Below are positions 21,577 to 49,781 of a DNA stretch of 64,000 nucleotides, piece by piece. The notes beneath the pieces were generated by a model, which was not told the origin of the DNA, ran no database searches, and saw only the letters and a list, made by a program, of their open reading frames with translations. The DNA is from Microbacteriaceae bacterium PS02068 (GTDB lineage: Bacteria; Actinomycetota; Actinomycetes; Actinomycetales; Microbacteriaceae): assembly GCA_029959325.1 (NCBI GenBank), contig JASCPF010000001.1:1-64000 (forward strand), given 5' to 3'. The first letter of the stretch is position 1; every line of letters starts with the position of its first letter. A program made the translations under genes and the position numbers.

Positions 21577-22925
21577 GCCCGCCACCCGTCTTTCCAATCT
21601 TCTGCGGCGGCCAGCTGCAGTGCCTCGCCCGCGAGGACGACGCTTCCCGCGATGACGACCGCGCGGCGGTCGGAGCTCGAGGCCCATTCGCGCGCGGCAT
21701 CGGCGGCCTCGGCAAGGTCGCGGTGCACGGTGACGTGGGCATCCGCAGCCTCGGCGAGGTCGGCGATCGCATCGGGCTCAGCGGCGCGGTCGGAGTCGGG
21801 CGCCGTCGCGAACACGTGGGTGGCGGCGGGGGCGAGCGTCGACACGATGCCCGCCAGGTCCTTGTCGCCGAAGGCGCCGAGCACGAGCCCCCACTCGTCG
21901 AAGTCGAACGAGTCGCCGAGCGCCTGCACGAGCGAACGTGCCCCGTGCGGGTTGTGTGCGCTGTCGACGAGGACGGTCGGGGCGACCCCGACCAGCTGCA
22001 GGCGCCCGGGCGAGGTCACCTGCGCAAGGCCGTCGGCGACGACATCGGGAGCGAGCGACCGCGACGCGCCGCCGATCAGCGACTCGACGGCGACGATCGC
22101 CAGCGCCGCATTGTGCCCCTGGTGCGCGCCGTACAGCGGCAGGTAGAGCTCGTCGTAGGTGCCGGCGAGGCCCTTCACCGAGATCTGCTGCCCGCCGACG
22201 GCGAGCCGCTGAGCGGTCAGACCGAACGCGTCGCCCTCGATCGCGAGCGATGCACCGCGGGCGGCTGCCGCCGTTGCCAACACCGTTGCCGCCGCCGGGT
22301 CCTGCTCGGCCGAGACCGCGGCGGCACCGTCCTTGATGATCCCCGACTTCACGGTCGCGATCTCGGCGATCGTGTCGCCCAGCTTGTCGGCGTGGTCGAT
22401 GTCGATCGGGGTGAACACGGCCACGTCGCCATCGGCGGTGTTGGTCGAATCCCACGAGCCGCCCATGCCGACCTCGATCACGGCGACATCGACGGGTGCG
22501 TCGGCGAAAGCCACGAAGGCGAGCACGGTCAGCAGTTCGAAGAACGTCAGCGACGCGTCGCCGGATGCCTGCAGCTCGGCATCCACGATGTCGACGAACG
22601 GCTCGATCTCGTCCCAGGCATCCGCGATCAGGCCGTCGTCGATCGGCTCGCCGTCGATCATGATCCGCTCGGTGAAGCGCTCGAGGTGCGGGCTGGTGAA
22701 CAGACCCGTGCGCAGGCCCGTCGCGCGAACGATCGACTCCGCGATGCGGGCGGTCGAGGTCTTGCCGTTCGTGCCCGTCACGTGGATCACGCGATAGGTG
22801 CGCTGCGGGTCGTCGAGATAGGTCAGCAGTCGTGCCGTGCGCTCGACGCGCGGCTGCACCCACTGCTCGCCCTGACGGCGCAGCAGCGCGGCGTAGACGG
22901 CGTCGGCTCTGTTCCTGTCGCTCAC
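21573..22925 (-). CDS. folC: Folylpolyglutamate / dihydrofolate synthase
   Basis: The protein has 450 residues of the Mur ligase-like ATPase family. The P-loop is [12 protein letters not shown] (about residues 48-59), followed by [24 protein letters not shown] (metal-binding Glu/His region variant) and [12 protein letters not shown] in the C-terminal domain. It joins glutamate to dihydropteroate and to reduced folates. It overlaps the ileS stop by four bases and the DUF4233 start by four bases. Confidence 0.96.
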
Positions 22926-25900
22926 GAGGTCGCTCCGATCCGTCCGACCGAGACCGTGAACGAACCCCGGTTGGCATAGGTGGCTTTGTCGATCACGTTC
23001 TCGAACTCGACGACGTCTGTGGCGATCGTTCCCATGTCGAGAAGAGTCTCGGTGCGAGAGCGCACCGAGCTGGCGAGCGCGAGTGTCTCGCCGGCGACGT
23101 CCGCCGCGGTGAACGCGGAGGTCACGGCCGCGGCATCCTCGTCGTCGTCGAACAGCAGCGTCAGACTGATCCGGTCGCTGACGTCGAAGCCGGCGGCCTT
23201 GCGGGTGTCCTGCACGGCGCGGATCACGTCGCGCGCCAGGCCCTCGGCCTCGAGCTCAGACGTCGTGGTCGTGTCGAGCAGGACGAACCCCCCTCCGCCG
23301 AGGAGCGAGATCGCCGTTCCCTCGGCGACTCCCCCGGCTTCGAGCGTGAGGTCGTACTCCCCCGCCTCGAGCGCGACACCGTCGACGACCACGGTGCCGT
23401 CCACGACGTCCCAGAGGCCCGCGCGGGCACCGGCGATGACGTGCTGCACCTGCTTGCCCAGGCGCGGTCCCGCGGCGCGGGCGTTCACGGCGAGGCGCTG
23501 GCTGATGCCGTAACGCTCGGCCAGCCCGTCAGTGAGTTCGACGAGATCGACCGACTTGACGTTGAGTTCATCACGCAGGATCGCCTCGAACTGGCCGAGC
23601 GCCGCGGCGTCCGTCACGGCCACCGTCAGAGCGGGCAGCGGCAGGCGCACGCGCTTGCCCTCCTTCTTGCGCAGCGCGTTCGCGACCGACGACACCTCTC
23701 GGACGGCATCCATCGCGGTGCGGATCTCGGGCGAGGCGGGGAAGGCACCCGCGTCGGGCCAGTCTTCGAGGTGCACGCTGCGGCCCCCGGTGAGCCCCTG
23801 CCAGATCCGCTCCGACACGAGCGGGATCAGCGGCGCCGCGACGCGCGTGAGCGTCTCGAGCACGGTGTACAGCGTGTCGAACGCCTCGGTCCCCGAGCCT
23901 GCCTCGGTCCCCGAGCTTGTCGAGGGGTCGACGCCCACCCAGAATCGGTCGCGCGAACGCCGGATGTACCAGTTGGTCAGCGCCTCGGCGAAATCGCGCA
24001 GCCGTGCCGCGGCCGTCGTCGAGTCGAGTGCGTCGAGGTCGACCGCGACGTCTCGCACGAGGTCGCCGAGCAGCGCCAGGATGTAGCGGTCGAGCACGTC
24101 GGTCGAGTCGGTGCGCCAGCGCGCCTCGTACCCCGAGCTCCCGCTTCCAGAGCCTGTGCCGTCGGTCCCTGAGCTTGTCGAAGGGCCGCCCGCCGCATTG
24201 GCATATGTCGCAAAGAAGTACCACGCGTTCCACACCGGCAGCAGGAACTCCCGCACGCCCGCACGGATGCCCTCCTCCGTGACGACGAGGTTCCCACCCC
24301 GCAGCACCGGCGAGGCCATCAGGAACCAGCGCATGGCATCCGACCCATCACGGTCGAAGACCTCGCTCACGTCGGGGTAGTTCCGCAGCGACTTCGACAT
24401 CTTCTGCCCGTCATTGCCGAGCACGATGCCGTGGCACGCGACACCCGAGAAGGCGGGGCGCTCGAACAGCGCGACCGACAGCACGTGCATGACGTAGAAC
24501 CAGCCGCGCGTCTGCCCGATGTACTCGACGATGAAGTCGGCGGGAGCATGCGCGTCGAACCACTCCTGGTTCTCGAACGGGTAGTGCACCTGCGCGTAGG
24601 GCATCGATCCCGAGTCGAACCACACGTCGAAGACGTCTTCGATGCGGCGCATCGTGGAGCGCCCGGTCGGGTCGTCCGGGTTCGGGCGCGTCAGATCGTC
24701 GATGTACGGACGGTGCAGATCGACCTCGCCGGCCTCGTTCAGGGGCAGGCGCCCAAAGTCGGCTTCGAGATCGGCGAGCGATCCGTAGACGTCGATGCGC
24801 GGGTACTCGGGGTTGTCGCTGCGCCACACCGGGATCGGCGAGCCCCAGAAGCGGTTGCGGCTGATCGACCAGTCGCGCGCGCCCTCGAGCCACTTGCCGA
24901 ACTGCCCGTGCTTGACGTTCTCAGGCGCCCACGTGATCTGCTCGTTCGCGGCGATCAGGTCGTCCTTGATGTCGGTGACGCGCACGAACCAGCTCGACAC
25001 GGCCTTGTAGATGAGCGGGTTCCGGCACCGCCAGCAGTGCGGGTAGGAGTGCTCGTAGGATGCCTCGCGCAGCAGGCGCCCCTCGGCCTTCAGCAGGCGG
25101 ATGAGGGGCCTGTTGGCATCCATCCACAGCTGCCCGGCGACGTCGGTGACCTGCGGCAGGAACTTTCCGCCGTCGTCGAGGCTCATGATCAGCGGGATGC
25201 CCGCGGCTTCCGTGACCCGCTGGTCGTCCTCGCCGTAGGCGGGGGCCTGGTGCACGATGCCCGTGCCGTCGGTGGTCGTCACGTAGTCGTCGACGAGGAT
25301 GCGCCAGGCGGTGCCGGTGCCCCACTTCTCGGCATCCGCGTAGTAGTCGAACAGCCGGTCGTAGTGCACGTCGGCGAGATCGGCGCCGAGGAGGGTGCGC
25401 TCGACGGCGGATGCCGCGTCGGCGGCCGACGCGTAGCCGAGTTCCTTCGCGTGGTTTCCCAGCAGATCGGCGGCCAGCAGGTAGCGGTGCGCGGTGGCGC
25501 TCTCGGGCTCGTCGCCCGTCGCGACGTCGGCGGCGCCGTGCGGTCCGCCCGGCACGACGACGTAGGAGATCGCGGGACCGACGGCCAGGGCGAGGTTCGT
25601 CGGCAGGGTCCAGGGCGTGGTGGTCCAGGCGAGCGCGCGCACCCCGGTGAGCCCGAGCGCCTCGGCCTTCTGGCCGACGAACGGGAACGTGACCGTCACC
25701 GACGGGTCCTGGCGCATCTTGTAGACGTCGTCGTCCATGCGAAGTTCGTGGTTGCTGAGCGGCGTCTCGTCGCGCCAGCAATACGGCAACACGCGATAGC
25801 CCTCGTAGGCGAGGCCCTTGTCCCACAGACTCTTGAACGCCCAGAGCACCGACTCCATGTACCCGGTGTCGAGCGTCTTGTAGCCGCGTTCGAAGTCGAC

Positions 25901-26413
25901 CCAGCGGGCCTGGCGGGTGACGTAGTCCTGCCACTGCGCGGTGTACTCGAGCACCGACTCCTTCGCCTTCGCGTTGAAGATGCCGATGCCCATCTCGACG
26001 ATCTCGTCCTTCTCGGTGAGCCCGAGCTGCTTCATCGCCTCGAGTTCGGCGGGCAGACCGTGCGTGTCCCAGCCGAAGACACGGTCGACCTTCTTGCCGC
26101 GCATCGTCTGGAAGCGCGGGAACAGGTCTTTCGCGTAGCCCGTCAGCAGGTGGCCGTAGTGCGGCAGGCCGTTCGCGAACGGCGGCCCGTCGTAGAAGAC
26201 CCACTCGTCGGCGCCCTCCCGCTGCGCGATAGATGCCCGGAACGTGTCGTCGCGCTGCCAGAAGGCGAGCACATCGCGCTCGATCTCGGGAAAGCGCGGG
26301 CTCGGCACGACCGCGTCGGCCGCGCGGCCGAAAGCGGATTCGGTCCCTGACGCGGCGCCGGTCCCTGACGAGGCACCGGTCCCTGAGCTTGTCGAAGGGC
26401 GGGGGTAGGTCAT
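22922..26413 (-). CDS. ileS: Isoleucyl-tRNA synthetase (eukaryote-like IleS2 type) with repeat-derived inserts
   Basis: The protein has 1163 residues, longer than the usual ~1040-1100. [16 protein letters not shown] (HYGH at residues 85-88) and [10 protein letters not shown] near 670 are the catalytic motifs; the first is in the form typical of mupirocin-resistant type 2 enzymes. The editing domain lies between (about 210-420, [11 protein letters not shown]). Three STSSGT-like, Gly/Ser/Thr-rich stretches are present: residues 7-25 at the N-terminus, about 742-755, and about 829-840. They are encoded by interspersed DNA repeats and sit in surface-type positions (before the catalytic core and in the C-terminal half). 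ATG 26413 has a GGAG site. Expression is controlled by the upstream T-box. Confidence 0.97.
23888..23926 (-). repeat. STSSGT repeat, ileS copy 3
   Basis: A full unit GGTCCCCGAGCTTGTCGAGG on the plus strand (23906-23926) is preceded by a shortened unit starting at 23888. On the coding strand it reads in frame as [17 protein letters not shown]. Confidence 0.8.
24164..24187 (-). repeat. STSSGT repeat, ileS copy 2
   Basis: GGTCCCTGAGCTTGTCGAAG and its continuation on the plus strand; coding-strand reading [19 protein letters not shown]. The neighbouring bases (24131-24160) are degenerate relatives of the same unit. Confidence 0.8.
26343..26400 (-). repeat. STSSGT repeat, ileS copy 1 with tandem 18-bp units
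   Basis: Three starts of GGTCCCTGA spaced 18 bp apart (from about 26343) end in the complete unit GGTCCCTGAGCTTGTCGAAG. The coding strand reads [19 protein letters not shown], so the array expands in whole codons at the protein's N-terminus. Confidence 0.8.
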
Positions 26414-26424
26414 GTCACTCCAGC

Positions 26425-26616
26425 AGGTTGCTCATGCTTTGCAGCGCTTCCTGCGAGGACGATCATGCGACCGCGGTACCACCTCGCTTGCCTCGTCGTC
26501 TCCGACTCCGAAGCCACTCTCCGACGGCTGTGACGGGCCTGCCCCGCGCGGTTCTACCTCTCGGCGAGCCGAGTCTCTTCCGCGAGCTCCCCGGTGATGG
26601 CCGGATCGATGCTGGT
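26425..26616 (-). promoter_or_regulatory. ileS T-box leader (ultrashort stem I)
   Basis: The leader contains the canonical T-box sequence AGGTGGTACCGCGG (26484-26471), whose TGGT pairs with the ACCA end of uncharged tRNA. Upstream, an ultrashort stem I CCGG-CCATCA-CCGG (26604-26591) holds the specifier ATC (Ile) at 26598-26596. Stem II/IIA-like hairpins lie between. There is no T-tract terminator before ATG 26413, so control is probably at translation initiation, as known for actinobacterial ileS T-boxes. When tRNA-Ile is uncharged the ribosome site is freed. A TATGAT -10 box lies at 26628-26623. Confidence 0.92.
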
Positions 26617-26622
26617 CCTGCC

Positions 26623-26628
26623 ATCATA
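26623..26628 (-). promoter_or_regulatory. -10 element of the ileS T-box transcript
   Basis: TATGAT on the minus strand, about 25 bases upstream of stem I. It is only ten bases from the divergent -10 box of the acetyltransferase gene, so the two promoters overlap. Confidence 0.55.
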
Positions 26629-26637
26629 CCGGCCGCC

Positions 26638-26643
26638 TAGGCT
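26638..26643 (+). promoter_or_regulatory. -10 element of the GNAT gene
   Basis: TAGGCT followed by seven bases and ATG 26651; leaderless. Confidence 0.5.
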
Positions 26644-26650
26644 GACCGAC

Positions 26651-27235
26651 ATGACCTCACCGAGCGGTCGCGGACGCGCAGTGAATCTCACGACGCACCG
26701 CCTGAGCCTTCGCGAACTGTCGTCGGCCGACCTTCCCGCACTCTCGATGATCCTCACCGACCCGATCGCGATGGCGGCGTACGAGGGTGCCTTCAGTGCT
26801 GGGGAGGTCATGGAGTGGCTGGAGCGCCAACAGGAGCGTTACGCGCGCGACGGCTTCGGTCTGTGGGCCGTCACCCTGCGCGAGACGGACGAGATGATCG
26901 GCCAGTGCGGCATCACGGTGCAGCGGATCGACGACGGCGAGGTCATCGAGGTCGGGTACCTCTTCCAGCGTGCGCAGTGGCACCGTGGCTACGCCCTCGA
27001 GGCAGCGAGCGCGTGCCGCGACTGGGCGTTCAGCACTCTCGCCATCGATGATCTCTATGCCAAGGTCCGCAGCACCAACGTGGCATCCATGAACGTGGCC
27101 ATCCGGCTCGGCATGACGGTGCGCCGAACCTTCACCACGCGCTACCGCGGGGTGGATATGCCGCATCTGGCCTTCTCGCTCTCGCGCAGCCAGTGGGAGC
27201 GCCGCGCGCGAGCGACCCCTACCATCGACGTGTGA
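26651..27235 (+). CDS. GNAT family N-acetyltransferase (RimJ/RimL-like)
   Basis: The protein has 194 residues of the Acetyltransf_3 type: TTHRLSLRELSSADLPAL at the N-terminus, DGFGLWAVTLRETDEMIGQCG (strand beta 2-3), the acetyl-CoA loop region YLFQRAQWHRGYALEAASA (Q/R-x-x-G-Y/A), and the C-terminal NVASMNVAIRLGM block (Asn-x-x-Ser). This group includes ribosomal protein acetylases and antibiotic-modifying enzymes; the substrate here is unknown. It overlaps the next gene by four bases (GTGA). It is divergent from ileS with interlocked promoters. Confidence 0.9.
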   Translation: MTSPSGRGRAVNLTTHRLSLRELSSADLPALSMILTDPIAMAAYEGAFSAGEVMEWLERQQERYARDGFGLWAVTLRETDEMIGQCGITVQRIDDGEVIEVGYLFQRAQWHRGYALEAASACRDWAFSTLAIDDLYAKVRSTNVASMNVAIRLGMTVRRTFTTRYRGVDMPHLAFSLSRSQWERRARATPTIDV

Positions 27236-45502: not shown

Positions 45503-47145
45503 GCGGCCAGTTCCGCCGACTGCTGCCGTCGGTCCGCGATTACGCCGCACTGCCCCGAACCTGGCGCGGCGATCTGCTCGCCGGCCTGACCGTCGGCATC
45601 GTCGCGCTTCCGCTCGCCCTGGGTTTCGGTGTCAGCGCCGGCCTCACCCCCGAAGCAGGGTTGATCACGGCGATCGTCGCCGGCGTGGTCGCTGCGGTGT
45701 TCGGCGGATCGCACGTGCAGGTGTCGGGCCCCACCGGCGCGATGGTCGTCGTCCTGGTGCCGATCGTGGCGACGCAGGGCCCGGGCGCGGTGATCACGGT
45801 GAGCCTGCTGGCGGGCGTGTTCGTCGTCGCGGCCGGTGCGCTGCGGCTCGGTCGCGCCGTCTCGTTCATTCCGTGGCCGGTGATCGAGGGGTTCACGCTC
45901 GGCATCGCCGCCATCATCTTCGCCCAGCAAGTCCCGGCGCTCGTCTCGCCGCACACCGCCGCGGCCTCCGAGCACTCGTCGAACGCGCTCGTCGCCGCGG
46001 TGCAGTCTTTCGGGCGACTCGACCCGGCGTACCTTCTCTGGGCGCTGGGCACCGTCGCGATCGTCGCCGTGTGCATGCTCGGCGCTCCGCGCATCCATCG
46101 AGCGCTGCCCGGCTCGCTCGTCGGGATCATCGTCGTCACCGTGCTGAGCCTCGTCCTTCCGGGCCCGCTCGCGCGCATCGGCGCTCTCCCCGCGACCCTC
46201 CCCGCCCCGGCTCTGCCCCTGCTCGACCCGACGGCGCTCGGATCGCTGGTCGCTCCCGCGCTGACCGTCGCCGCGCTGGCCGCGATCGAGTCGCTGCTGT
46301 CCGGGCGGGTCGCCTCGACTCTCGCCGACACCGGCGAGTTCGATCCCGATCGCGAACTCGTGGGTCAGGGGCTGGCATCCATCGCCTCGTCGCTGTTCGG
46401 CGGGATGCCGGCGACCGGCGCGATCGCCCGCACCGCGGTCAACGTCCGCTCGGGCGGCCGCACCCGCCTCGCGGCGATCACGCACTCGGTCATCCTGCTG
46501 CTGGTCGTCCTCGCCGTCTCGGGCCCGATCGGGCAGATCCCCCTCGCCGCCCTCGCCGGTGTGCTGATGGTCACGGCGGTGCGCATGGTCAATCCGGAGG
46601 CGGTGCGGGCGATCCTCCGTTCCACGCGCGCAGACGCCCTGGCGTTCGTCGTCACGGTGCTGATCACCGTGTCGTTCGACCTCATCGTGGCCGTCGTCAT
46701 CGGGGTCGTCCTGGCCGGTATCGTCGCGCTGCGGAACCTCTCCCGCGGGGCAGACGTCCGCCGCGAGCCCATCGCCGGCACGGCCGAGCCGGGCGACGAG
46801 CGCATCGCCGTGCTCGGACTTCGCGGGCCGCTCTTCTTCGCCGCAGCCGACCGCATCGCCGCCGAAGTCGACGACATCCGGGGCGTGTCGGTGGTGATCC
46901 TGCGGATGAGCCAGCTCGAGCTGGTCGACGCGACCGGCGCCCGCACGCTCGGCGAGATCGTCCAGGCGCTCGAACGTCGTGGTGTCACGGTGCTGATCAA
47001 GGGGGTGCAGCCGCGGCACGAGAGCCTGTTCCGCACGGTCGGCGTCCTCGATGCCCTGCGCGACCATCGCCACCTGTTCACCGACCTTCCCGCCGCGATC
47101 GCGCACGCACGCAGTCACGTGCGGCGCGAAACGGCGACCGCGTAG
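45499..47145 (+). CDS. SulP-family anion transporter with STAS domain
   Basis: The protein has 548 residues from GTG 45499. About 11-14 membrane helices occupy residues 1-410; SulP motifs include GDLLAGLTVGIVALPLALGF (first pore helix), VSGPTGAMVVVL and FGGMPATGAIARTAVNVRSG. The C-terminal STAS domain (about 430-545, ILRMSQLELVDATGARTLGE) is complete. These carriers move sulfate, bicarbonate or other anions; the exact substrate is not clear. Co-transcription with an ArsR repressor is the main context clue. Its stop TAG is part of a TAGGCT box that may serve pepN. Confidence 0.93.
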   Translation: MSGQFRRLLPSVRDYAALPRTWRGDLLAGLTVGIVALPLALGFGVSAGLTPEAGLITAIVAGVVAAVFGGSHVQVSGPTGAMVVVLVPIVATQGPGAVITVSLLAGVFVVAAGALRLGRAVSFIPWPVIEGFTLGIAAIIFAQQVPALVSPHTAAASEHSSNALVAAVQSFGRLDPAYLLWALGTVAIVAVCMLGAPRIHRALPGSLVGIIVVTVLSLVLPGPLARIGALPATLPAPALPLLDPTALGSLVAPALTVAALAAIESLLSGRVASTLADTGEFDPDRELVGQGLASIASSLFGGMPATGAIARTAVNVRSGGRTRLAAITHSVILLLVVLAVSGPIGQIPLAALAGVLMVTAVRMVNPEAVRAILRSTRADALAFVVTVLITVSFDLIVAVVIGVVLAGIVALRNLSRGADVRREPIAGTAEPGDERIAVLGLRGPLFFAAADRIAAEVDDIRGVSVVILRMSQLELVDATGARTLGEIVQALERRGVTVLIKGVQPRHESLFRTVGVLDALRDHRHLFTDLPAAIAHARSHVRRETATA

Positions 47146-47148
47146 GCT
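47143..47148 (+). promoter_or_regulatory. -10 element of pepN
   Basis: TAGGCT overlaps the sulP stop codon. It predicts an mRNA start near 47155 and a ~60-nt leader with a GGGAG ribosome site before GTG 47217. Confidence 0.4.
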
Positions 47149-47216
47149 GGAGCGGTTGCCGTCGGCGCCAGCAGCGCCGCGCCACTTTTCGCACCCTTAT
47201 CCCTGGGAGTACCGCA

Positions 47217-49781
47217 GTGCCTGGACAGAACCTCACCCGCATCGAGGCGCAGGAGCGCCGCGCGATCGTCGACACGCAGTCGTACGACATCGCCCTCGAC
47301 CTGACGAAGGGTGCCGAGGTCTTCGGATCGCGCGCCGTCGTCCGCTTCACCGCCACTCCGGGATCGTCGACGTTCATCGACCTGATCGCCCGGGATATCC
47401 GCGAGATCACCCTCAACGGCGAGGCGATCGACCCGGCATCCGTGTACGCCGACTCGCGCATTGCGCTCGAGAACCTGTCGGCAGACAACGAGCTCATCGT
47501 CGACGCCCACTGCGAATACACGAACACGGGCGAGGGCCTGCACCGCTTCGTCGATCCGGTCGATGGCGAGGTGTATCTCTACTCGCAGTTCGAGGTGCCC
47601 GACTCGCGGCGCGTCTTCGCGGTGTTCGAGCAGCCCGATCTCAAGGCCGAGTTCTCCTTCACGGTGACGGCACCCGCGGCCTGGAAGGTCATCTCCAACT
47701 CCCCCACTCCCGAGCCGGTGCCGGGCGGCCTTTCGACAAGCTCAGGCACCGAGACCGCCACGTGGGCGTTCGAGCCCACCCCGCGCATCTCGTCGTACAT
47801 CACCGCGATCATCGCCGGCCCGTACGAAGAGACTTTCTCGGAGCTCACGAGCGCCTCGGGTCGGGTCATCCCGCTCGGCGTCTATGGCCGCAAGAGCCTC
47901 TGGAAGGACCTCGACGCCGACTACATCTTCGACAAGACCCGCGAGGGCTTCGCGTACTACGAAGAGAAATTCGGCGTGCCGTATCCGTTCGCGAAGTACG
48001 ACCAGCTCTTCGTGCCCGAGTTCAACGCGGGCGCCATGGAGAACGCGGGCGCGGTGACCTTCACCGAGACCTACGTGTTCCGCAGCAAGGTCACCGACGC
48101 CGTCAAGGAGCGCCGCGTCGTCACGATCCTGCACGAGCTCGCGCACATGTGGTTCGGCGACCTCGTCACGATGAAGTGGTGGAACGACCTCTGGCTCAAC
48201 GAGTCGTTCGCCGAATGGGCCTCGACGATCGCGACGGCCGAGGCCACCGAGTGGACCGAGGCGTGGACGACCTTCAACGCGATGGAGAAGACCTGGGCCT
48301 ACCGTCAGGACCAGCTGCCCTCGACCCACCCCGTCGTCGCGCAGATCAACGATCTCGACGACGTGCAGGTCAACTTCGACGGCATCACCTACGCCAAGGG
48401 CGGGTCGGTGCTCAAGCAGCTCGCCGCCTGGGTCGGCATCGAGGCGTTCTTCGCCGGCGTCGGCGCCTACTTCCAGAAGCACCAGTGGGGCAACACCGAG
48501 CTCTCCGACCTGCTCGTCGAGCTCGAGGCCACGAGCGGCCGTGAGCTGTCGACCTGGTCGAAGAAGTGGCTCGAGACGGCCGGCGTGAACACGCTGACGC
48601 CGGAGCTGAAGACGGATGCCACGGGCACCCTCACCCGCTTCGCGATCGTGCAGACGGCGCCCGCCGACTACCCGACGATCCGTCCGCACCGCCTCGGCGT
48701 CGGGTTCTACAGCCTCGAGGGTGACGCGCTCGTGCGCACGCACCACGTCGAGATCGACGTGGACGGCGACCTGACCGACGTGCCCGAGCTGGTCGGTCTC
48801 GCGCAGCCCGACCTCGTGCTGCTCAACGACGAAGACCTCGCCTACGCCAAGATCCGCCTCGACGAGCGCTCGCTGCAGACCGCCATCGCGCACCTGGGCG
48901 GCATCAGCGATCCGCTCGCGCGCTCGCTCGTGTGGGGTGCGGCCTGGGACCAGACGCGGGATGCCGAGGCATCCGCGTCGGACTACATCGACCTCGTGCT
49001 GCGCAACATCGGCGCAGAAACCGAGTCGACGACCGTCCGCACGACGCTCGCCCAGCTGCAGCTCGCGGCGAACTCCTACGTCGCGCCCCACAAGCGCGCC
49101 GCCTCGCGCGAGCGCGTGGCCGACGGACTGTGGAGCCTGGCGCAGGCGGCCGAGGCCGGCAGTGACAGCCAGCTGCAGTTCGTCACGGCGTTCGCCTCGG
49201 CGGCGTCGACACCGTCGCAGTGGGAGCAGGTGCGCGCGCTCCGCGACGGCACGGTCTCGCTGCCGCAGCTCGAGATCGACGCCGACCTCTCGTGGGCGCT
49301 GCTGGTCTCGCTCGCGGCGGGTGGCCTCGTCGAGGCACGCGACATCGACGCCGCGCTCGCGGCAGACAACACCGCGAAGGGCGGCGAGTTCGCGGCGCAG
49401 GCGAAGGCCGCGCTGCCGACGGTGGATGCCAAGCGCGCGGCCTGGTCGTCGCTCATCGACACCGCCGACCTGCCGAACACGGTCGTCCGCTCCGCGGCGC
49501 TCGGGTTCGTGCACCCCGCCGGCGTCGAGGTGCTCGCGTCGTTCGTCGAGCCGTACTTCGACATGCTGCTGCCGATCTGGAACGGACGCTCGTACCAGAT
49601 CGCGAACTACCTCATCACGGGCCTCTTCCCCGCGCCGCTCGCGAGCGTCGAGCTGCGCGACGCGACCCGGGGATGGCTGAGCGTGCACGCCGACGCCCCG
49701 GCCGCTCTGCGTCGCCTCGTGAACGAGAACCTCGCGGGGGTCGAGCGCGCCCTCGCTGTGCAGGAGCGCGACGCGGAGTAG
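47217..49781 (+). CDS. pepN: M1 aminopeptidase N
   Basis: The protein has 854 residues from GTG 47217, with GGGAG upstream; longer in-frame readings cross sulP. The exopeptidase motif GAMENAGAVTF is near residue 270 and the zinc site HELAHMWFGD near 304 with the third ligand in NESFAEW. The C-terminal helical domain is complete. It trims N-terminal residues from peptides in the cytoplasm. At about residues 171-178 the sequence GGLSTSSGTETATW contains a DNA-repeat-encoded insert, the same as in ileS, in the N-terminal beta domain. Confidence 0.96.
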   Translation: MPGQNLTRIEAQERRAIVDTQSYDIALDLTKGAEVFGSRAVVRFTATPGSSTFIDLIARDIREITLNGEAIDPASVYADSRIALENLSADNELIVDAHCEYTNTGEGLHRFVDPVDGEVYLYSQFEVPDSRRVFAVFEQPDLKAEFSFTVTAPAAWKVISNSPTPEPVPGGLSTSSGTETATWAFEPTPRISSYITAIIAGPYEETFSELTSASGRVIPLGVYGRKSLWKDLDADYIFDKTREGFAYYEEKFGVPYPFAKYDQLFVPEFNAGAMENAGAVTFTETYVFRSKVTDAVKERRVVTILHELAHMWFGDLVTMKWWNDLWLNESFAEWASTIATAEATEWTEAWTTFNAMEKTWAYRQDQLPSTHPVVAQINDLDDVQVNFDGITYAKGGSVLKQLAAWVGIEAFFAGVGAYFQKHQWGNTELSDLLVELEATSGRELSTWSKKWLETAGVNTLTPELKTDATGTLTRFAIVQTAPADYPTIRPHRLGVGFYSLEGDALVRTHHVEIDVDGDLTDVPELVGLAQPDLVLLNDEDLAYAKIRLDERSLQTAIAHLGGISDPLARSLVWGAAWDQTRDAEASASDYIDLVLRNIGAETESTTVRTTLAQLQLAANSYVAPHKRAASRERVADGLWSLAQAAEAGSDSQLQFVTAFASAASTPSQWEQVRALRDGTVSLPQLEIDADLSWALLVSLAAGGLVEARDIDAALAADNTAKGGEFAAQAKAALPTVDAKRAAWSSLIDTADLPNTVVRSAALGFVHPAGVEVLASFVEPYFDMLLPIWNGRSYQIANYLITGLFPAPLASVELRDATRGWLSVHADAPAALRRLVNENLAGVERALAVQERDAE
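47729..47750 (+). repeat. STSSGT repeat in pepN
   Basis: CCTTTCGACAAGCTCAGGCA followed by CC; same unit as in ileS with two or three base changes. It reads in frame as LSTSSGT. Confidence 0.8.

Follow-up and report, generated by a model that had tools for sequence, protein, structure and literature searches.

We report the analysis of a short DNA repeat in the first 64,000 nucleotides of contig JASCPF010000001.1 of Microbacteriaceae bacterium PS02068 (hereafter the window, meaning the whole stretch of DNA that was analysed), where three copies lie in frame within ileS, the gene for isoleucyl-tRNA synthetase (IleRS). The 20-bp unit is a stem-loop resembling the repetitive extragenic palindromes (REPs), built from a fixed 11-nt loop, TCGACARGCTC, and a variable complementary stem of 4-7 bp. 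It probably represents a REP-like class in Actinobacteria that does without the REP-associated tyrosine transposases (RAYTs), is spread by a step at the DNA level and is tolerated in ileS through the frame in which it reads and the sites at which it lies. The evidence consists of its copy number, a stem that covaries, the tendency of inverted neighbours to differ in stem and a patchy distribution, together with the absence of the ileS inserts from relatives, the recurrence of inserts at the same loops, a bias in reading frame and arrays that extend to one side only.

Pattern searches of the window place exact matches to the unit, CCTTCGACAAGCTCAGGGAC, at 26379-26398 and 24165-24184 on the minus strand, and a third ileS copy with two mismatches, CCCTCGACAAGCTCGGGGAC, at 23907-23926 on the same strand; a fourth copy at 47730-47749 on the plus strand, also with two mismatches, is decayed. 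One hundred shuffles of the window gave no match. An earlier note on this DNA had recognised the same three ileS copies, with each coordinate one base too low. The features are these:

22922-26413, minus strand: ileS, isoleucyl-tRNA synthetase of 1163 amino acids, host gene of the three inserts, assigned from its open reading frame (ORF), the Pfam domains tRNA-synt_1 and Anticodon_1, and best PDB sequence matches that include IleRS chains.
26379-26398, minus strand: hairpin copy 1, stem type T-A (CCCT/AGGG), N-terminal, reading PSTSSGT.
26341-26378, minus strand: two partial outer-end copies adjoining copy 1, with an 18-bp period (by eye).
24165-24184, minus strand: hairpin copy 2, stem type T-A, in a loop ahead of the anticodon-binding domain, reading PSTSSGT.
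24130-24164, minus strand: degenerate Gly/Ser-rich stretch adjoining copy 2, absent from most relatives among the matches listed.
23907-23926, minus strand: hairpin copy 3, stem type C-G (CCCC/GGGG), in a loop within the anticodon-binding domain, reading PSTSSGT.
23887-23906, minus strand: partial outer-end copy adjoining copy 3, with an 18-bp period (by eye).
47730-47749, plus strand: the decayed copy 4, reading STSSGT in frame within an ORF at 45873-49781 with M1 peptidase domains.

Partial copies had been described beside each of the three units. At copy 1 the outer end, CGGTCCCTGA on the plus strand, is read by eye at 26341, 26359 and 26377, an array of three units with an 18-bp period when the end of the full copy is counted, and at copy 3 the sequence CGGTCCCCGA occurs at 23887 and 23905, again 18 bp apart by eye. 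The description does not extend to copy 2, whose flank (about 24130-24164) is degenerate Gly/Ser-rich sequence with no clean partial copy. Alignment of ileS with the IleRS of T. thermophilus (1ile) puts sites 2 and 3 at points at which the 1ile chain is shorter, and site 1 ahead of the aligned start, in agreement with the view that the enzyme tolerates the inserts; the further description of the linker as flexible and soluble is drawn from its composition.

The structure of the unit is most clearly seen when copies from several genomes are compared. In PS02068 the hairpin ends read CGACC...GGGACCG around a 4-bp stem, and positions 3 and 15 of 116 strict copies, taken from 303 kb around copies, are T-A in 58, C-G in 57, T-G in one and C-A in none. 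Within this genome the split is ambiguous and the case for structure therefore rests on the other genomes (genomes, loci and contigs carry our own labels, G, L and C). There, copies were collected by the loop TCGACARGCTC alone, yielding 47 from G021, 41 from G140 (whose second stem type may stem from few arrays), 90 from 30 partly overlapping loci, 35 from IMG/VR contigs (one copy per contig having come from a search on stem plus loop) and 23 from the ileS genes of relatives, sets that are not all independent. Stem pairs 1-4 and 6 occur in them in more than one complementary type; pair 3, for example, is C-G in 53 and G-C in 30 of the 90 copies from the 30 loci. The exact loop comes with a stem of 4 bp or more in 40 of 47 cases in G021 and 35 of 41 in G140, loops with one mismatch in 12 of 96 and 5 of 62, and loops with two mismatches in 10 of 774 and 4 of 425, respectively, some of the stretches counted having been picked near known copies. 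The dependence of the stem on the exact loop identifies the unit as a hairpin in which the 11-nt loop is rigid and the stem free to vary. The hairpin of G021 folds at -5.3 kcal/mol (z -2.4) and an inverted pair of hairpins folds strongly, at -27.9 kcal/mol (z -8.2); the hairpins at loci L010, L026, L011 and L255 matched no Rfam family at the gathering score.

The earlier note's picture of a dispersed unit of the spreading type is borne out. The PS02068 assembly (3,487,444 bp in 190 contigs; the named loci that best match its ileS come almost entirely from Microbacterium, the genus to which we assign it) holds 88 + 93 = 181 copies with at most three mismatches, against none for a reversed-pattern control, and 127 copies match a pattern in which any Y/R combination is accepted. 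With one mismatch allowed, a match is present in 21 of 150 genomes of the family, at 0 to 613 per genome, and in 111 of 198 genomes of the genus, at 0 to 381 per genome with many holding one or two; an exact search with a shorter pattern found it in 7 of 396 genomes of the phylum, including PS02068 and two congeners. The unit is carried by 19 IMG/VR stretches, and weak partial matches to the paired hairpin were found in two plasmid and two phage records. In PS02068 one hairpin array adjoins the small signal recognition particle RNA gene (L026, about 1461-2236). An apparent strand polarity in G140, where a listing gave only plus-strand copies along 1.5 Mb, proved to be an artefact of that listing, as the stretches read also hold minus-strand copies.

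The hairpins are arranged in a regular fashion. Inverted neighbours no more than 80 bp apart have different stems in 74 of 77 pairs from five genomes (14/14 in PS02068, 17/17 in G021, 38/38 in G211, 1/1 in G236 and 4/7 in G140), many of these pairs sitting in tandem arrays and hence not being independent, while direct neighbours in G211 share the same stem in 22 of 24 cases. Among 126 hairpins read in PS02068 there are 14 inverted close pairs (10 inner-facing, 4 outer-facing) and 6 direct ones, so that most hairpins in this genome are singlets; inverted pairs are commoner in G211 (20 inner-facing, 18 outer-facing). The 18-bp array at the N-terminus of ileS, to which the earlier note had drawn attention, is present and is not special to that gene: of 128 copies whose flank is long enough, 58 are followed by a partial copy no more than 60 bp beyond the GGGACCG end, the commonest spacing being 18 bp (30 of 58). 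The opposite, inner side has partial copies in only 2 of 128, and wrong-side motif controls gave 8 of 128 each, full copies being left out of the array tests and kept in these controls. The spacers look locus-specific and alike within one array, as would be expected from tandem duplication of the element end with its flank.

To assign 139 PS02068 copies with at most two mismatches, we used a classifier based on codon log-odds, for which 19 ORFs of the window served as training set. Forty-two are genic and in frame, 15 are non-coding and one lies at the end of a stretch; a further 36 have coding sequence on both sides in a different frame or gene, and 45 on one side only. The 42 genic copies encode PSTSSGT (27), LRQAQGP (10) and FDKLRDR (0) in the sense orientation and VPELVEG (3) and SLSLSKG (2) in antisense, a bias with p = 5e-10 if the five open frames are equally likely. 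The choice of frame is thus non-random, as had been anticipated, and the claim that the unit always reads STSSGT is true of ileS here but extends, genome-wide, only to 27 of these 42 classifiable copies. Another 20 copies, the N-terminal copy of ileS among them, lie near possible start codons, 12 in the first frame and 8 in the second, some of them doubtful.

Comparison with relatives shows that the ileS inserts are not a common inheritance of the group. Of 80 ileS loci, 77 gave a readable ORF (three were dropped), and none of these 77 has all three inserts. Thirteen hold the loop, with at most one mismatch, together with a stem of at least 3 bp. By alignment, copies occupy the N-terminal site in L063, L084 and L078, site 2 in L036 (five in tandem), L063, L079 and L084, and site 3 in L078, L081 and L087; L036 and L081 have degenerate N-terminal copies, L081 has an additional copy at codon 356, and the matches in L034 (antisense), L037, L067, L076, L086 and L111 are weak, lie elsewhere or are unplaced. 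The copies of L036, L063 (site 2), L084 (site 2) and L087 carry the stem GCT/AGC, which is missing from these sites in the window, and this foreign stem at the same sites argues for parallel insertions at tolerant positions in several species independently. Two observations may be added on the gene itself. Locus L057 has an ileS of Microbacterium type, 78% identical to that of the window, on a contig that bears the name of Stenotrophomonas maltophilia; that assembly is probably contaminated. The ileS leader (window 26440-26560, minus strand) contains TGGTACCGCGG, which we take to be T-box-like, the region 26300-26900 giving no Rfam match at the gathering score.

In the mechanism that these results suggest, the unit would spread through mobilisation at the DNA level, with the hairpin as the feature recognised. 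Within genes, insertions would survive in a loop or at a terminus when they read PSTSSGT (or LRQAQGP), purifying selection sorting the outcome, and the outer-end arrays would arise by secondary tandem duplication, or slippage, of the element end and its flank. The mobilising enzyme would be something other than a Y1/RAYT protein of the PS02068 genome, and proteins of the DUF222-HNH type are the best candidates.

Several observations weigh against this account. The PS02068 hairpin alone folds weakly (-1.7 kcal/mol, z 0.25), and the T-A/C-G split of that genome, taken alone, could be that of two inherited lineages. The predominance of singlets there is unlike the situation in REPINs (REP doublets forming hairpins). 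The gene calls are home-made, and they left 97 of the 139 copies outside the in-frame genic class; genic copies are few in G211 and G236, 3 of 85 over 20 stretches, with VPELVEG, FDKLRDR and PSTSSGT read once each, so that the frame bias and the heavy use of genes are demonstrated for PS02068 only. Even in ileS the N-terminal copy of L078 reads LRQAQGP. Finally, the loci compared show neither a transposition event nor an exact empty site, and because the closest ileS relative is about 85% identical at the protein level, the borders of the inserts (18-21 bp by eye) are approximate.

The question of the mover has been approached from two sides. The earlier note had suggested looking for a REP-associated transposase; a profile search for Y1_Tnp (PF01797, the RAYT family) found none in PS02068, one in 150 family genomes and one in 198 genus genomes, the control for this search matching in 5 of 14 named genomes. 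The sole hit in the genus lies in G189 (C15:20980-21342, L221), a genome with one repeat match. Of 38 ORFs found between hairpins, on the other hand, five are of the DUF222-HNH type (four checked with Pfam), and these five share a leader, AATGTCRGTGG-N19-ATG. This motif was searched in 33 genomes, where some hits are not DUF222 genes, and it fails by itself as a predictor of hairpins. A hairpin within 250 bp upstream, the nearest being in minus orientation and at a near-constant distance, accompanies all 8 motif hits read in G050 (of 16); the same holds for 5/5 hits in G140, 1/1 in PS02068 and 4/4 genes read in G021, three of the latter lying in stretches picked near hairpins. The result is mixed in G108 (3/13), G033 (1/4) and G134 (1/2), and no upstream hairpin was found at the motif in G037 (0/6), G236 (0/6), G154 (0/5) and G071 (0/5) or at the single hits in G211, G218, G258, G297 and G332.

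Hairpins stand on both sides of the DUF222 gene in 4 of 5 testable cases in G050, 3/3 in G021, 1/2 in G134 and 1/1 in PS02068, and on both sides of all five further DUF222 genes, without the exact motif, in G071; the DUF222 genes of G140 have no inverted partner downstream. The DUF222 loci read from G211, G236 and G332 have no hairpin, and in PS02068 one is found at only 1 of 7 loci read, of 11 matches. Taken together, 132 DUF222 ORFs (120 groups if those sharing an exact 80-residue stretch are merged, at least two places being represented twice) include 26 with an upstream hairpin, 17 with a downstream one and 13 with both. The nearest upstream hairpin is minus in 24 of 26 (22 of 24 without duplicates), the two plus cases looking like chance, and the nearest downstream hairpin is plus in 12 of 17. 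On a FastTree phylogeny of the 132 ORFs, which has several long branches, the hairpin-flanked state requires 11 changes; a position beside inverted hairpins or between them has therefore been acquired many times, by different DUF222 lineages, which fits either homing into hairpin pairs or mobilisation. Conversely, the DUF222 genes without hairpins mean that these proteins cannot be called the mover of all copies.

Besides a single case in PS02068 (C18), the enclosed DUF222-HNH genes come from certain Microbacteriaceae genera (G050, G071, G134, G021), the loci being L346, L357, L360, L362, L420, L425, L430, L435 and L438 and further L255, L258, L262, L345 and L340. The presence of DUF222 is uninformative as a correlate of copy number, being near-universal in the genus (195 of 198 genomes, with at most ten candidates scored per genome). 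The 50 top-scoring DUF222 loci (L271-L320), judged by hairpin positions only, have at most one hairpin each and none on both sides. G164 has three DUF222 paralogues (L364, L365, L366) with a common leader of about 70 bp by eye, no hairpins and unrelated flanks past the stop codon, so that DUF222 genes seem to multiply by themselves. In G181, a genome without a match to the unit, a different tandem repeat of about 23 bp, CGTTCGTCGAGCTCGCTCAAC, lies upstream of a DUF222 gene (L367).

The alternative that survives best makes these DUF222-HNH (13E12-type) proteins the mobile partner, either moving the hairpins or homing into hairpin pairs, with hairpin-gene-hairpin as the full element and lone hairpins and pairs as short derivatives. 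We regard it as possible but rather unlikely. It is suggested by the five enclosed genes and by the consistent upstream orientation in G050, G140, G021 and PS02068, yet many repeat-bearing genomes have motif hits without an upstream hairpin, the downstream orientation is less regular, and G164 has its three paralogues and no hairpins. Moreover, paralogues may be copied together with their hairpins, and the within-genome counts and chances calculated from hairpin density are therefore not independent. A more speculative extension, which we hold only tentatively, would recognise a second, RAYT-independent REP system: DUF222-HNH endonucleases would move the fixed-loop hairpins or home into them, HNH genes flanked by hairpins would be the autonomous form, re-formed repeatedly from different lineages of DUF222, and the hairpin would serve in frame as a peptide linker in essential proteins.

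That the units are classical REPs whose RAYT has since been lost is improbable. Their inverted, dimorphic hairpins do recall the BIMEs (bacterial interspersed mosaic elements) of E. coli as presented in the passages cited below, but Y1_Tnp is all but absent from a genus in which 111 of 198 genomes match the repeat, the sole Y1_Tnp genome of that genus has a single match, and GTAG or CTAC stands near the end of only 3 of 162 copies. Equally doubtful is a functional recognition site, for uptake, Chi-like or terminator, kept by selection on its sequence: the very uniform loop and the many copies near gene ends would suit such a site, against which stand the swings in copy number from 0 to 613 across the family and 0 to 381 across the genus and the fact that the ileS copies are gains in length when set against the genes of relatives. 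Growth of a low-complexity Gly/Ser linker in ileS by slippage with no mobile unit, for which the clean 18-bp arrays and the local expansions of L084 and L036 at the same loop could be cited, is refuted as sole explanation and hardly credible given the same 20-mer at 181 places, on both strands and outside genes as well, though slippage remains likely for the arrays.

The preferred reading, a REP-like class spread without a RAYT, can now be set beside known systems. Rickettsia palindromic elements (RPEs) are likewise palindromic DNA lying in frame in genes of known function; at about 150 bp in the account cited (PMC10969869), and in another phylum, they are set apart by length from the unit of about 20 bp. 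The REP13E12 or DUF222-HNH repeats of Mycobacterium tuberculosis involve the same protein family, there as a repetitive element, and the source, in the part cited here (PMC10589994), does not mention an association with hairpins; the tie to the present hairpins is a lead of this analysis. With respect to miniature inverted-repeat transposable elements (MITEs), no exact empty site was seen here and a candidate larger unit exists in some genera only. CGTC-tagged REPs have 8-9 bp stems and loops that are mostly 4-5 nt long, are said to lack a dedicated transposase and include intragenic cases (Di Nocera 2013, PMC3733652, in the passages cited). The last two traits are shared by our unit; its 11-nt loop and 4-7 bp stem, 4 bp in PS02068, do not fit that class, and CGTC or GACG lies within 8 nt of the end in 48 of 162 copies, a minority with varying flanks that tests the tag only weakly. 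REPINs, as described in the cited part of Bertels and Rainey 2011 (PMC3116915), resemble the inverted doublets seen here in that these can form a long hairpin, but in PS02068 the main unit is mostly the singlet and not the doublet.

The closest likeness is to the REP/BIME and RAYT systems, so far as these are treated in the passages cited (Nunvar 2010, PMC2817692; Di Nocera 2013, PMC3733652). Common to both are a short hairpin in high copy (here 181 copies of a palindrome with a covarying stem), stem changes that keep complementarity, inverted pairs made up of two types (Y/Z), clusters, a sometimes intragenic position, and a gene between two inverted hairpins, which is the RAYT there and DUF222-HNH here, in some genomes only. 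As to the extragenic position of REPs, 42 of the 139 PS02068 copies are in-frame genic, 15 non-coding and 81 coding on one side only or changing frame or gene, against 3 of 85 genic copies in G211 and G236. The differences are that a Y1 (RAYT) gene, flanked by two inverted REPs in those systems, was not found in PS02068, that a GTAG tag is wanting (GTAG or CTAC within 8 nt of the end in the 3 of 162 copies mentioned), that the 11-nt loop is fixed and the stem variable, and that the host belongs to the Actinobacteria, a group unnamed in the main texts of the two papers. Our literature search returned nothing pairing RAYT-type terms with Actinobacteria and nothing for two encoded peptides of the unit together, while 14-mers of the unit led to a paper on miRNA. 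In those texts REPs are either linked with RAYT transposases or lack a known mover. A fixed-loop class present in hundreds of copies in Actinobacteria without a Y1 transposase makes movement independent of RAYTs testable. It also suggests what the very common DUF222-HNH genes may do, and provides a clear case in which hairpins of mobile type have given an essential enzyme linkers read in frame, the same loops having received them independently in several species. The system works like REP/BIME and is best filed as a variant of it, one that differs in its enzyme, its tag and its loop.

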